Positions 3,763-23,348 of a DNA stretch of 36,364 bases are shown in pieces (the stretch's first letter is position 1; each line of letters starts with the position of its first letter). Below the pieces are notes generated by a model. The model was not told where the DNA came from. It searched no databases and saw only the letters and a list, made by a program, of their open reading frames with translations. The stretch is from Hyphomicrobiales bacterium (GTDB lineage: Bacteria; Pseudomonadota; Alphaproteobacteria; Rhizobiales; Aestuariivirgaceae), in assembly GCA_027024225.1 (NCBI GenBank), contig JALVSR010000073.1, forward strand, positions 1 through 36,364, written 5' to 3'. Both the position numbers and the translations under genes were made by a program.

Positions 3763-4123
3763 TGTTGACCGCTTCGAGCATGGTCATGGTCAGCGCTGAA
3801 CCGACACGGAGGTTGTTCGTGGTCGTTTACCCGCACACTTTCCATCATCCCCGCGAAAGCGCAGTGGTGTCCAGGGAAAGTTGCGTTGAAATAAGAAAAG
3901 GGGATGATTTACAAGCGGTTGCCTCCAATAACAGAGGAAGGGGCTTTTGCAGGTGGTTCCCTTTTTCGTCATCCCCGCGAAAGCGGGGATCCATAAGTGA
4001 ATCAGTGGCTTACTGGATTCCCGCTTGCGCGGGAATGACGATGAAATGCGGGCGGATAGGAGCAAGGACGGGTAAACCGCTGCCGGTGGTCAACAAGGCG
4101 AGAAAAAAGGATACTTGCAATCC
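3763..4123. other. 361-bp gap upstream of recG: repeats, no gene
   Basis: No convincing gene. The region contains a degenerate repeat copy near 3843-3860 and the inverted repeat at 3967-4040. The open frames here, with peptides such as FPRKRES, come from the repeat itself and are not proteins. The purine-rich AGAAAAAAGGA just before recG is the likely ribosome binding region. Confidence 0.7.
3967..4040. repeat. dRS3-like dispersed inverted repeat
   Basis: A left arm beginning CGTCATCCCCGCGAAAGCGG (3967-3993) is mirrored by a right arm, 4014-4040, whose reverse complement begins CGTCATTCCCGCGCAAGCGG. A loop of about 20 bases separates them. Each arm also folds on itself (CCCCGC/GCGGGG). This is the widespread proteobacterial repeat resembling Neisseria dRS3. 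A third, decayed copy (CATCCCCGCGAAAGCG) lies near 3844. It sits between the TauE-like gene and recG. Confidence 0.85.
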
Positions 4124-6369: not shown

Positions 6370-7251
6370 GTGTCCGAAACGGTGATTCACAACACCTCGT
6401 CCCTGCAGCGCAGGCTGCTGGCATGGCTGGAAAACCCGCGCACCGAGCAATTCATCATCGGCGTCATCATCATCAACGCCCTCGTGCTGGGGCTTGAGAC
6501 TTCGCCGGCCATTTACGCGCGCTTCGGCCCCCTGCTGGAGGCCATCGACGCCATCTGCCTGTGGATTTTCACCGTGGAGCTGCTGGCGAAAATATATGTC
6601 CACCGCCTGCGCTTTCCGCGCGATCCGTGGAACGTGTTCGACTTCCTGGTGGTGGCCATCGCCTGGATACCGGCCACGGGGTCGTTCGCCGTGTTGCGCG
6701 CGCTGCGCGTGCTGCGCGTGTTGCGGCTCATCACGACGGTGCCGGCCATGCGCAAGGTGGTTTCCGGCCTGTTGCAGGCCATCCCCGGCGTGGGCACGGT
6801 GATGCTGCTGTTGTCGCTGGTATTCTACGTTTTCTCCGTCATGACGACCATGCTCTACGGCGCCACCTTTCCCGAGTGGTTCGGCACGCTGCCGCGCTCG
6901 GCCTATACCCTGTTCCAGATCATGACGCTGGAGAGCTGGTCCATGGGCATCGTGCGACCGGTCATGGAAAAGCACCCCCATGCATGGGCCGTGTTCATCC
7001 CCTTCATCCTCATTACCAGCTTCACGGTGCTGAACCTGTTCATCGGCATCATCGTCAACGCCATGCAGGTGGAAGCGGAAGAAATGATCCACGCCGAGCA
7101 CGAGGAGCGCCAGCGTGAAAGCGCCATGATACTGGCGGAAATCAGGAAATTGCGCAAAGAGGTGTCGGCGCTGCGTGAAAAGGCCCCGGCCTGCCCGGAC
7201 GAGAAAGGAAACATTGATTCAAATTCTTCATCAGCGCGTACAAGCAGTTGA
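6370..7251 (+). CDS. Voltage-gated sodium channel, bacterial NaChBac/NavMs type
   Basis: 293 residues, one six-helix unit that would assemble as a tetramer in the inner membrane. S1 lies at about 27-43 and S2 at 58-77. S3 contains DPWNVFDF (85-92). S4 has four arginines spaced by three (R110, R113, R116, R119). S5 is at about 138-164, the pore loop carries the selectivity filter TLESWS (186-191), and S6 is at about 205-232. The filter is the one found in sodium-selective bacterial channels. Stretches such as LYGATFPEWFG and MTLESWSMGIVRPVM match the Magnetococcus NavMs sequence I know nearly word for word. A charged neck and coiled coil (about 235-270) follow S6, as in NavMs. The start is GTG at 6370 with AGGAGG eight bases before it. 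It likely links sodium entry to motility or pH, by analogy. Confidence 0.93.
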   Translation: MSETVIHNTSSLQRRLLAWLENPRTEQFIIGVIIINALVLGLETSPAIYARFGPLLEAIDAICLWIFTVELLAKIYVHRLRFPRDPWNVFDFLVVAIAWIPATGSFAVLRALRVLRVLRLITTVPAMRKVVSGLLQAIPGVGTVMLLLSLVFYVFSVMTTMLYGATFPEWFGTLPRSAYTLFQIMTLESWSMGIVRPVMEKHPHAWAVFIPFILITSFTVLNLFIGIIVNAMQVEAEEMIHAEHEERQRESAMILAEIRKLRKEVSALREKAPACPDEKGNIDSNSSSARTSS

Positions 7252-12977: not shown

Positions 12978-14072
12978 ATGAACGATCTGCGACAGACCAC
13001 GCGCAATCATGACCTGCCGCCGCTGGCGCTGAGCATGGGCGAGCCGGGCGGCATTGGCGCGGAGATAGCGCTCATGGCCTGGCGGGCGCTGCATGAATCC
13101 GGCCCGGCCTTCGCACTGATTGGCTCCGTAGAGCTGCTGCGCGCCCGCGCGGCGCGGGCGGGGCTGGCGGACGTGCCGGTGCAGGAGGTGGCGGACACGG
13201 CGGAAGCGGCGGAGGTATTCCCCCGCGCCCTGCCCGTGCTGGAGCCGCCCCAAGCCGCAGACGTGGTGGACACCCCCGGTCAGGCCCTGCCGGAAAACGC
13301 CGCCGCCGTGCTGACGGCTATCCGCGAGGCCGTGCGGCTGACCATCTCCGGCGCGGCGGCGGGCGTGGTCACCCTGCCCATCCAGAAGGAAAGCCTCTAT
13401 CAGGCCGGCTTCGATTTCGAGGGCCACACGGACTACCTGGCCGCGCTGGCGCAGGAGATGCTGGAACTCAAGGAGCGCCCCGTGCCGGTGATGATGCTGA
13501 CCGCGAAGGACCTGCGCGCCGTGCCAGTGACGGTTCACATCGCGCTGAAAGATGTACCCGCAAGACTCTCCACCGATTCGATAATCCGCCAGGGCCGCAT
13601 CCTCGCGCACGATCTTTCCCGCCGCTTCGGTCTGCCCCGGCCACGCATCGCCGTGGCGGGGCTGAACCCGCATGCCGGCGAGGGCGGGCGCATGGGCACG
13701 GAGGAGCGCACCATCATCACGCCCGCCATCGAGGCCCTGCACGCGGAGGGCATCGACGCCTTCGGCCCGCTGCCCGCCGACACGCTGTTTCACGACGAGG
13801 CGCGGGCCACCTACGACGCCGTCCTGTGCATGTATCACGACCAGGCGCTGATACCGGTGAAGACGCTGGATTTTCATGGCGGGGTGAACGTCACCCTCGG
13901 CCTGCCCTTCGTGCGCACATCGCCCGATCATGGCACGGCGCTGGCGCTGGCCGGCAGTGGAAAGGCGCGGCCCGACAGCCTCATCGCGGCGCTGAAACTG
14001 GCGGCGGACATGGCGCGCGCTGACCGACAAGCCAGGGAAACCACGCAACAGGAGGCTCGCGGCAATGGCTGA
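12978..14072 (+). CDS. pdxA: 4-hydroxythreonine-4-phosphate dehydrogenase
   Basis: 364 residues, slightly longer than Escherichia coli PdxA. It oxidises 4-phosphohydroxy-L-threonine with NAD in pyridoxal phosphate synthesis. The family start [14 protein letters not shown] is at about residue 15. The three metal-binding histidines can be seen in [27 protein letters not shown] and [14 protein letters not shown]. The C-terminal [17 protein letters not shown] is also typical. The start at 12978 was chosen because the upstream extension (to 12834) is unlike the family and antisense to rsh. Its last eight bases overlap the start of rsmA; pdxA-rsmA is a common pair in proteobacteria. Confidence 0.96.
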
Positions 14073-15216
14073 AACGCCGGACGGCCTGCCCCCATTGCGT
14101 GAAGTCATCGACAGGCTAGGTCTGCGCGCGAAGAAGGCGCTGGGGCAGAACTTCCTGCTGGATCTCAACCTCACCCGCCGCATCGCGCGCGCCGCCGCAC
14201 CGCTGGAAGGGCACATGGTCATCGAGGTCGGCCCCGGCCCGGGCGGGCTGACGCGCGCCCTGCTTCTGGAAGGGGCGGAGAAGGTCATTGCCATCGAGCG
14301 CGACGAGCGCGCCCTGCCGGCTCTGGAGGAAATCGCCGCGCGCTGGCCCGGAAGGCTGGAAGTCATTCACGGCGACGCCCTCAAGATGGACTATCCGGCG
14401 CTGGTGGCGGAGCACGCAGATGGCCTGCCGGTGAAGGTGGTGGCCAACCTGCCCTACAACATCGCCACGCCGCTATTGACAGGCTGGCTGACGGACTGGG
14501 CCGCACCCCGCATCCCGGCATTGGACCAGGCCCGCGCCCCCGCCCAGCCACCTGCCTCCACAATATCGGCTGGTTGGAAGGGGGAGCGGACCGGAACCGA
14601 TCGCGCTTCGGCGCAAGAAAAACCAGCTTCCCCTCCCCACCGCCATGCCCACCATGTTGAGGGCGGTGGGGAGCGGGAGCAGGGAGGGCCGGTCGGACGC
14701 TTGCCAAGGAATCCCGTGGTTGGGCGGGGGAGCGGGCCGGAGCCGACCGCGCCTCAGCGCAATAATGACTGGCCGCCGTGGTGGGAGTCGCTCACGCTGA
14801 TGTTCCAGAAAGAGGTGGCCGAGCGCATCACCGCTCAGCCGAAAACGAAGGCTTATGGCAGGCTGGCGGTGCTCTCACAGTGGCGGGCGCGTCCGCGCAT
14901 CCTGTTCGAGGTGCCGCCGCGCGCCTTCGTGCCGCCGCCGAAGGTCACCTCCGCCGTGGTGCAGATCGTGCCCGCCGAACGTCCGCCCGTTCCGCGCGAT
15001 GTGAAGGCGCTGGAAAAGGTCACGCAGGCCGCCTTCGGCCAGCGGCGCAAGATGCTGCGCCAAGCGCTGAAAACGCTGGTGAAGGACCCTCTGCCCCTGC
15101 TGGAGCGCGCAGGGCTGGAGCCCACCCGCCGGGCGGAAGAGCTGAGCGTGGAGGAGTTCGTGCGACTGGCCGCGGCCTACGAGAACTTCCTGGCCGAAAA
15201 AGCCAACCAGCCCTGA
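14065..15216 (+). CDS. rsmA: 16S rRNA dimethyladenosine transferase RsmA/KsgA with a 91-residue insertion
   Basis: 383 residues; without the insertion it would be 292, the normal size. It dimethylates two adjacent adenines near the 3' end of 16S rRNA during small-subunit assembly. The core is intact: [12 protein letters not shown]-adenosylmethionine motif [16 protein letters not shown], catalytic motif [11 protein letters not shown], then after the insert [29 protein letters not shown] and [12 protein letters not shown]. The insert lies between codons 144 and 235 (14494-14766), in a surface loop by comparison with KsgA. It is rich in Pro, Gly, Arg and Ala, looks disordered, and is made of the repeat DNA described separately. 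No stop or frameshift is present, so the gene is probably functional; this is inference. Confidence 0.93.
14494..14766. repeat. Palindromic repeat element inserted in frame within rsmA
   Basis: A 273-bp insert between two copies of GACTGG (14494-14499 and 14767-14772). Its parts in order: an inverted pair (14529-14552 with 14568-14592), a tail hairpin GCGC-TTCG-GCGC (14603-14614), a second inverted pair (14627-14644 with 14662-14679, about 16 of 18 paired), a right arm (14715-14737, GTGGTTGGGCGGGGGAGCGG and three more bases), and a second tail hairpin GCGC-CTCA-GCGC (14749-14760). The 33 bases at 14709-14741 are identical to 23287-23319, which lie between genes. Confidence 0.88.
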
Positions 15217-16200: not shown

Positions 16201-16233
16201 GATGACATACCCCCCGCCTGTGAAATGTTCCTT

Positions 16234-16318
16234 GCACGGAAGTGCGTCGTTCCGGCCCGCTCCCCTCCCAACCACCCGATATTGTGGGAACCAGGTGGTT
16301 GGGCGGGGGAGCGGCCCT
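16234..16318. repeat. Palindromic repeat element between yicC and gmk
   Basis: The tail hairpin, reading GCAC-TTCC-GTGC on the minus strand (16234-16245), is followed by a left arm 16252-16276 (CCGGCCCGCTCCCCTCCCAA and five more), a 17-bp loop, and a right arm 16294-16318 (GGTGGTTGGGCGGGGGAGCG and five more). The arms pair over most of their length. This is the simplest copy of the family: one palindrome and one tail hairpin. It lies where the transcript passes from yicC to gmk, so it may affect processing or coupling. Confidence 0.85.
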
Positions 16319-18407: not shown

Positions 18408-18742
18408 GTCGCAAACGCTCCAAGGCTTTCCGGAACCATCATGGAATCTCGACCCGCACGAACACACTCACGCATGCCACCGGGCCGAAATTGAGGCCGA
18501 ATGAAGAGGTAATCGCGGTGCGGGATCAATCCACCTACCTGAACAACAGCGCCGCATTGGTGCCGCCGATGCCCTGCCGGGAAGTTTCGTTGTCCCCGCT
18601 TCCTCCCTCCTTGCCCATGATCAAGGGTGGACGGGAGTGAGGAGCGAGCAGAGGCCAATGGAATGATTCAGAAGACAATACGGCGCTCCGCCCCGAATAT
18701 GTGACCCGACATGGACCGCCGAACACGCTCACCACCCTTGTC
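18408..18742. other. 335-bp gap between mltG and fabF: duplicated fabF end and a palindrome
   Basis: No intact gene. It holds a 48-bp duplication of the fabF 3' end (18526-18573) and an imperfect GC-rich palindrome (about 18598-18644, arms GCTTCCTCCCTCCTTGCCC and GGGTGGACGGGAGTGAGGAG with the loop containing ATGATC). The palindrome resembles the inner palindromes of the repeat family in composition only; it lacks the tail hairpin. The rest shows nothing recognisable. Confidence 0.6.
18526..18573 (-). pseudogene. Duplicated 3' end of fabF (16 codons)
   Basis: These 48 bases match 18743-18790, the end of fabF, at 45 of 48 positions. Read on the minus strand the fragment gives GIGGTNAALLFR, then a stop where fabF has Lys (AAG to TAG), then Val, Asp and the original stop. 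No other part of a ketoacyl synthase is found upstream of it, so it is a remnant of a local duplication and not a gene. Confidence 0.8.
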
Positions 18743-21342: not shown

Positions 21343-21427
21343 GTGTCCCCTCTCGTTTCGATGGTTTGCCTTTGGCCCCGGTATCTAGACGAAAAATGGC
21401 GACAGGGCGAGTTTGCGTATACATTTT

Positions 21428-21579
21428 GCGCGGTAGCGCATCCGGCACCGGCCCTCGCTCCCTCCCGGCCACCCAGATCATGAAACCAAGTGACCGGCAG
21501 GCGGCGTGGGCCTTTTTGCGAAAGCCCGCTGGTTGGACGGGAAACGGGCCTTTGCCATTGCCCGGAAGCACAATCGTGC
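21428..21579. repeat. Palindromic repeat element between fabD and fabG
   Basis: Parts in order: a tail hairpin reading GCGC-TACC-GCGC on the minus strand (21428-21439), a palindrome (21450-21472 with 21490-21512, about 18 of 23 paired), a linker, a right arm (21528-21550, GCTGGTTGGACGGGAAACGG and three more), and a tail hairpin GCAC-AATC-GTGC (21568-21579). The 54 bases at 21444-21497, reversed, match 23214-23267 at 48 positions. The element fills most of the fabG/fabD gap. Confidence 0.85.
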
Positions 21580-23160: not shown

Positions 23161-23338
23161 GGCCCGCTCTCCCACCCAACCACCTGGCTCTCACGATAAG
23201 CCCTCGCCCCCTCCTGGCCACTTGGTTTCACGATTTGGGTGGCCGGGAGGGGGCGAGGGCTGGTGCCGTGCACTTCCGTGCATGAAGAATCCCGTGGTTG
23301 GGCGGGGGAGCGGGCCGGAACCATTCGCGCTCAAGCGC
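23161..23338. repeat. Nested palindromic repeat element between DUF3775 and IalB-like genes
   Basis: The outer left arm 23161-23184 (GGCCCGCTCTCCCACCCAAC and four more) pairs with the outer right arm 23293-23315. Inside is a near-perfect 22-bp stem (23200-23221 with 23239-23260, 21 of 22 paired) with the loop around TTTCACGATTT, followed by a tail hairpin GCAC-TTCC-GTGC (23270-23281). A second tail hairpin, GCGC-TCAA-GCGC, follows the outer right arm (23327-23338). It is the fullest copy of the family and lies between two convergent genes, where it could also act as a two-way terminator. Confidence 0.88.
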
Positions 23339-23348
23339 AAGAACTTCC

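Follow-up and report, generated by a model that had tools for sequence, protein, structure and literature searches.

An in-frame cluster of dispersed palindromic repeats in rsmA of a Hyphomicrobiales bacterium, probably translated as a disordered extension of RsmA

Results

A stop-free insert divides the rsmA gene

In the window, that is, the whole stretch of 36,364 nucleotides from an uncultured Hyphomicrobiales bacterium that was analysed here, the gene for the 16S rRNA adenine dimethyltransferase RsmA is divided by an insert that keeps the reading frame. The NCBIfam model TIGR00755 (ksgA) matched the product in two stretches with 243.5 bits against a cut-off of 171, the Pfam model RrnaAD (PF00398) likewise matched it in two stretches, and this gene gave the sole full-length RsmA match in its own genome. 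That genome is designated G000 hereafter, and its ten relatives from the same genus G001–G010. The features below include copies of two repeat elements, A and B, and of a 5′-truncated A (A′); the names of genes flanking the intergenic copies were assigned by eye, and the E values come from A and B profiles that were built from copies they later scored.

14065–15216, + strand: rsmA (ksgA), 16S rRNA adenine dimethyltransferase, 383 aa with the insert; TIGR00755, PF00398
14500–14772, equally 14494–14766, + strand: in-frame insert in rsmA, 273 bp, 91 codons, no stop; absent in empty-site relatives
14494–14499, + strand: left GACTGG at the insert
14767–14772, + strand: right GACTGG at the insert
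14500–14529, + strand: leader of ~30 bp from GACTGG to element A, with no recognised repeat origin
14530–14619, + strand: element A, full length, with a long hairpin, a spacer, a GCGC/TTCG/GCGC hairpin and an A-rich end; E 5.3e-21 (the copy itself is in the profile)
14625–14699, + strand: element B in rsmA, a palindrome; E 5.1e-19
14704–14765, + strand: element A′, 5′-truncated A (profile positions 30–91); E 5.2e-11
16229–16316, − strand: element A between yicC and gmk; E 1.4e-18
18595–18655, + strand: weak B-like copy between fabF and mltG; E 1.9e-4
21424–21511, − strand: element A between fabD and fabG; E 8.3e-14
23200–23286, + strand: element A, intergenic; E 1.1e-16
23289–23343, + strand: truncated A (37–91) directly 3′ of the full A; E 3.6e-9; holds most of the 33 bases common with A′ of rsmA

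The spacing between an NLPYN and a QKEVA-type motif was determined in 110 RsmA loci among the matches listed (30 from the genome search and 80 from the contig search), and both motifs were found in 106 of these; the other four comprised two loci truncated at a contig end (L010 and L033) along with L036 and L123. The motifs were 22–31 residues apart in 103 of the 106 loci, and 72 in two (L011 and L065, both from a single G007 contig); the locus of the window stood at 114, a net gain of about 89 residues over the usual spacing of 25. A sequence-only reading of the locus had put the addition at 91 residues, which agrees with the 91 stop-free codons of the insert but slightly exceeds the net gain by motif spacing. 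The same reading took the two GACTGG copies for a target duplication. This was not supported, as a 6-mer was shared by two random 30-bp coding windows in 28% of 20,000 trials, and GACTGG was therefore no longer used as evidence. Moreover, the left GAC is probably part of the gene, because RsmA of G006 has D (GAT) at that place.

The insert consists of copies of two dispersed palindromic elements

The insert had been described as built of the repeat DNA that is found between genes elsewhere in the window. The repeat identity stood, but the insert is not one element: it comprises three copies (A, B and A′) and the leader. Positions 14709–14741 are exactly identical to 23287–23319 over 33 bases, as had been stated, and the agreement in peptide was reproduced as well, with SPAQPPGSHNIGWLGGERAG read from the minus strand of the yicC/gmk copy. 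Own-genome matches that reached the left part of the insert mostly started at query positions 31–38, with one at 25, and one in G002 started at 13.

Elements were resolved in 394 kb of own-genome sequence, consisting of the window and 32 stretches chosen for holding repeats, so that densities within it are not genome-wide. Element A measures 88–91 bp as a rule (mostly 85–92 bp) and combines a long hairpin (arms of ~23 bp) with a small one of the GCGC-TTCA-GCGC or GCAC-TTCC-GTGC type, the two being separated by a spacer, and with an A-rich end; by inspection, its consensus starts with GCCC and ends with GCAA plus A-rich bases. Element B is a palindrome of 75–78 bp when complete (12 copies aligned, some partial). 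The succession of B and truncated A also occurs at L146:4847–4987 and L149:597–732, that of a full and a truncated A is found in further own-genome stretches, and full copies follow each other head to tail at a spacing of ~87–96 bp in nine of the stretches fetched. Several contigs of the genus start or end in elements (L156:7–188, L159:7–273, L167:1–67 and L010:1–162), among them the G006 contig, which stops within its rsmA insert.

Over 39 A copies, the named structure was paired in 90.2% of cells, compared with 42–50% in six slid versions, a comparison that favours this structure in that it was taken from one of the 39 sequences. Seventy cells were changed on both sides of the hairpins, against a shuffled mean of 32, and none of 500 shuffles reached 70; counted as pairs, 10 were changed on both sides against 7.3 in shuffled sets, which is unremarkable (31 of 500 shuffles reached 10). 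As RNA, the rsmA insert was predicted to fold with −147.4 kcal/mol (z −3.63), and 1 of 200 shuffles was as good. Rfam 15 gave no match in the window at gathering score, nor did the insert alone match Pfam at E 0.1.

A palindrome of another kind lies between called genes at 3969–4041 of the window and encodes SSPRKRGS...WIPACAGMT, a peptide type that we take to mark a widespread proteobacterial repeat. On another contig of the same genome (L172), DNA near a B element, upstream of position 7067, codes for a peptide resembling it, SFPRKRESS...ISAFAGMT.

The elements occur in most genomes of the genus and are scarce in genes of the sampled sequence

Searched with the rsmA insert, its own genome gave at least 61 matches, the self match and its reverse included, and the best match outside the insert itself had an E value of 3.6e-30, which places the repeat likeness beyond chance. 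With the insert as query, at least 9 of the 11 genus genomes, G000 among them, gave a match; a single A copy as query matched at least 12 of 60 family genomes, namely the same 9 of 11 from the genus and 3 of 49 others (G012, G018 and G019, from three other genera). In all these searches candidates were scored in part, 40 of 101 in the own genome and 15 of 57 in the family search with the A copy.

Among 55 repeat blocks in the sampled 394 kb, five lay inside genes, one partly inside and 49 outside. As 83% of this sequence was called coding, by a home-made codon-usage score trained on 17 genes of the window, the elements are scarce in genes. By the same score, none of 20 blocks (19 from the genera of G012, G018 and G019, L319–L337, and one from G003) lay in a gene. 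The transposase domain Y1_Tnp (PF01797) was matched in none of the 11 genus genomes, some of which are incomplete, whereas the control was positive in 5 of 14 known genomes. A link of the spread of the elements to a RAYT was rejected on this ground, although a Y1 enzyme may formerly have been present.

The rsmA site is filled in three species and empty in most relatives read

The rsmA site was empty in six genus relatives (G001, G002, G003, G005, G009 and G010) and in all 13 family relatives read, and was filled in G006 and G007 with an A element at the same codons as in G000. Two relatives were left unscored, G004, whose contig stops short of the site, and G008, which gave no rsmA. The expectation of an empty site in relatives was thus borne out, while that of a strain-specific insert was not. 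Neither was an ancient domain without repeat similarity found in relatives, whose inserts are repeat copies too. The G006 and G007 copies have the orientation and entry phase of the G000 copy; the exit phase of A in G006 equals that in G000, and that in G007 differs. In content, the three inserts are distinct: A, B and A′ in G000; A and a second A-like copy running into the contig end in G006; and one A followed by other sequence in G007.

A tree was inferred from RsmA, SpoT, CobQ and the protein of a vWA gene (2181 columns with many gaps, several species lacking whole genes). It grouped the species as ((G000,G008),(G004,G006)),(G002,G007) with UFBoot values of 99–100 at these nodes and 66–89 at the outer genus nodes. 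The species with a filled rsmA all lie within one clade, which also holds the empty G002, the sister of G007; RsmA of G002 has the ancestral length and retains EP before WPP.

In-frame copies recur in other genes

In total, fifteen species copies of elements were found in frame at seven sites in six genes: rsmA, a vWA gene (two sites), cobQ, a GGCT-like gene, a gene for a RACo/AcsV-like corrinoid activator, and one gene of G004. These bear out the proposed likeness to the Rickettsia palindromic elements (RPEs). In each gene, it was an open frame that brought the initial case to light, a relaxed cut on repeat-spanning ORFs being needed for the G000 CobQ, G000 GGCT-like and G004 vWA cases, and the RACo case was taken from the list of repeat-spanning ORFs with C-terminal overlap. 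Many repeat-spanning ORFs looked antisense or spurious and were sorted by the codon-usage score; two antisense frames of cobQ that passed the relaxed cut were discarded by eye, and an ORF that spans two elements ahead of a BirA-like gene (L153) did not count as an insertion, the gene start lying 3′ of the repeat. Scoring of 42 repeat blocks revealed no further in-gene case besides the RACo and G004 genes. Pfam at E 0.01 and NCBIfam gave no name for the GGCT-like gene or the G004 gene, and the labels GGCT-like, NorD-like and Tam41-like (for the G004 gene) were given by eye.

The vWA gene, which had no Pfam matches other than VWA and none in NCBIfam, has two in-frame inserts in G000. Site 1 was seen filled in G000 only. 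Site 2 holds an element of like orientation in G000 and G004 but none in the outer species or in G008, whose sequence at this place is 92% identical to that of G000. The G008 contig starts near site 2 with a palindrome resembling an assembly end, and beside position 7160 of L146, at site 2 of G000, ~57 bp at the A-rich end look AT-rich for the genome.

The linker between the two domains of CobQ holds an antisense element in G000 and variant elements in sense orientation in G004 and G010, which agree with each other in orientation and frame, and lacks an element in G002, G003, G005 and G007. As G000 on the one hand and G004 and G010 on the other carry their copies in opposite orientations, this linker was hit more than once. 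Separately, CobQ of G002 and G007 (L199 and L200) has a common in-frame insertion of ~40 codons near residue 473, to which the A and B profiles gave no match.

In the GGCT-like gene, G000 (with A and truncated A), G008 and G004 (each with A) carry sense copies whose entry or tail phases differ between species, and the site is empty in G003, G005 and G010. The truncated A of G000 and the A of G008 can be aligned over their tails, which would fit the addition of a new A at an older one. The RACo/AcsV-like gene, matched by PF14574 in two stretches, is filled in G000 and G008 with agreement in orientation and both phases, and is empty in G001, G002, G003, G004, G005, G007 and G010. For the G004 gene, homologues in G000, G002, G003, G005, G006, G007 and G009 are without the element according to match coordinates. 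Phase is thus not uniform across species, the exceptions being the G007 rsmA exit and parts of the GGCT-like and vWA sites.

The reading frame is kept and the enzyme fold is predicted to be intact

Eight of the copies were found by stop-tolerant protein searches starting from another species; none of them contains a stop, and the frame is regained in all seven that do not run off their contig. Element A itself tends to be open: 48 full-length copies (5 in genes) had a mean of 4.48 of six frames open, compared with 3.87 in dinucleotide shuffles, of which none of 200 sets reached the observed value, and with 4.02 in random 89-mers of the window. For the 12 B copies, the value was not exceptional (4.58 open frames against 4.13 shuffled, maximum 4.92). 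In the RACo case, G000 and G008 differ at 21 of 59 aligned residues in the insert region and at 18 of 246 in a flank, which would suggest weak constraint on the peptide while the frame is kept.

AlphaFold2, run on the RsmA of the window with 23 relatives, placed the insert between a helix (residues 131–143) and a strand (242–248), with pLDDT below 50 at residues 147–189 and 191–233 and of at least 90 for 223 of the 383 residues. The 50 Foldseek matches listed were KsgA, TFB1M, Dim1, their relatives and complexes, with target TM scores of 0.77–0.92. Modelling, as had been proposed, thus predicts that the KsgA fold remains intact and that the insert is disordered; the loop that holds it is probably exposed.

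Discussion

Origin of the insert in rsmA

The claim that palindromic repeat DNA lies in frame inside rsmA was borne out by the dispersed repeat family, the paired arms, the empty sites and the in-frame copies in other genes. With good confidence, we interpret the insert as a cluster of dispersed, non-autonomous palindromes that occupies a loop of RsmA without breaking the frame, would be translated into a disordered extension and turns over in content. As part of RsmA, it would be near-neutral for the enzyme. The clade of G000, G006 and G007 would have acquired a first A, in one or more events, after which the content would have changed to A+B+A′ in G000, A and an A-like copy in G006, and A with other sequence in G007, presumably by nested insertion or by recombination at the resident copy. 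Copies would persist where a loop tolerates a change in length, and selection would hold the frame and clear most other insertions from genes.

How many gains this entailed is debatable. Empty sites nested among carriers, G002 at rsmA and G008 at vWA site 2, require either loss or repeated gain, and for G002 a history in which nothing was ever inserted would fit at least as well as a precise loss. One serious contender, to which we give somewhat less than an even chance, is therefore that the loop is an insertion hot spot or merely a tolerant place where G000, G006 and G007 gained their elements independently. It is in line with the ancestral length of the empty site in G002, the sister of G007, with the empty vWA site 2 of G008, the sister of G000, next to the filled ones of G000 and G004, with the opposite CobQ orientations of G000 and G004/G010, and with the entry or tail phases in the GGCT-like gene that vary by species. 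However, the three RsmA copies agree in orientation and entry phase, for which we reckoned a chance of about 1 in 36 under independence, and the entry phase is common to the three even though each of the six frames is open in 28–42 of the 48 full-length A copies; the two RACo copies, too, agree in orientation and both phases. At rsmA, the agreement in orientation and entry phase speaks for a common origin.

A function of the insert itself, either as an adaptive protein loop or as an RNA hairpin tuning rsmA expression, is unlikely in our view. Its predicted RNA fold is stable beyond nearly all shuffles, and elements inside genes are no less well paired than the remaining copies (0.925 of cells in 5 copies and 0.899 in 34), but good pairing may reflect youth alone. 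Besides, the content of the insert varies by species, G002 and the outer relatives read do without it, and the insert peptide of the RACo gene diverges far more than its flank. Still less probable is that the insert is skipped, by translational bypassing between identical flanking codons or by removal as an intron or intein. Identical codons do stand on both sides, GAC TGG in G000 and CCC in G007, and hairpins occupy the gap. Skipped DNA, however, would be free to have stops and any length, yet the copies at known sites keep the frame while the lengths of the 48 full-length A copies spread over the remainders 0, 1 and 2 as 17, 14 and 17, and neither Pfam for the insert (E 0.1) nor Rfam for the window (gathering score) gave a match. 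An assembly artefact caused by the repeat, which the sequence-only reading had kept in view and which several contigs of the genome starting or ending in A or B elements might suggest, is scarcely credible, given that the join lies inside a 36-kb contig and that two other genomes carry an in-frame A at the same codons.

Beyond the preferred reading of a translated, near-neutral palindrome cluster, we tentatively entertain, at rather less than even odds, the idea that element A has been shaped to be harmless in genes, a reading prompted by the surplus of open frames in A relative to dinucleotide shuffles. A copy once resident in a loop could then act as a landing pad where later copies join or displace it, so that disordered, rapidly changing loops that vary by species would sit at one codon in core enzymes of sister species, and the spread would proceed without a Y1 transposase.

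A genus with 11 genomes in which filled and empty sites coexist makes the gain, loss, growth and cost of such inserts comparable. RsmA offers a simple readout, dimethylation of the 16S rRNA adenines, by which the cost to the protein is measurable, and the kasugamycin response is a further readout of this enzyme.

Comparison with known repeat systems

Literature matches on palindromic or protein-coding repeats, among those listed and with subscription journals mostly outside, included no title on RsmA inserts, and as far as this literature reaches, the element family and its lineage appear new. In-frame palindromic inserts as such, though best documented in Rickettsia, are already known from a few other genera. 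The RPEs were reportedly described by Ogata et al. in 2000 and 2002, and a 2005 paper by Ogata is said, by its title, to concern protein-coding palindromic repeats in Wolbachia, another alphaproteobacterium.

Small, non-autonomous MITE-like elements such as ERIC and Correia/NEMIS, some of them fused in frame according to passages of two papers (PMC2229807, PMC10969869), resemble A and B in these respects. As for the terminal inverted repeats and target-site duplication that mark MITEs, the ends of A are by inspection not inverted copies, and the GACTGG repeats at the rsmA insert are within chance. REPs have also been found inside genes of several genera, and repeat clusters encode 43–82 residues in Thauera and R. 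conorii, as part of one account states (PMC3733652). GTAG/CGTC REPs are like A and B in that such repeats lie inside ORFs in several genera (same passages of PMC3733652), but the A consensus is without a GTAG or CGTC end tag and forms a longer unit (88–91 bp). RAYT-mobilised REPs differ further in that no Y1 transposase was matched in the 11 genus genomes.

The closest parallel is provided by the RPEs, palindromes of ~105–150 bp that lie in frame in Rickettsia genes, where the guanylate kinase is active despite its RPE insert, with changed substrate affinity, as passages of PMC10969869 and PMC2229807 relate. Like A and B, RPEs are described, in the parts concerned, as occurring between genes as well as in frame in conserved genes, with homologous insertions in several species (PMC10969869, PMC2229807, PMC3733652). 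A and B, though also palindromic and dispersed, are shorter (A mostly 85–92 bp, complete B 75–78 bp); A is set apart by description as a two-hairpin unit used in both orientations; and the host is not Rickettsia, the RsmA matches listed being largely Hyphomicrobiales by title. Judged by organisation and location, A and B are best read as RPE-like palindromes.
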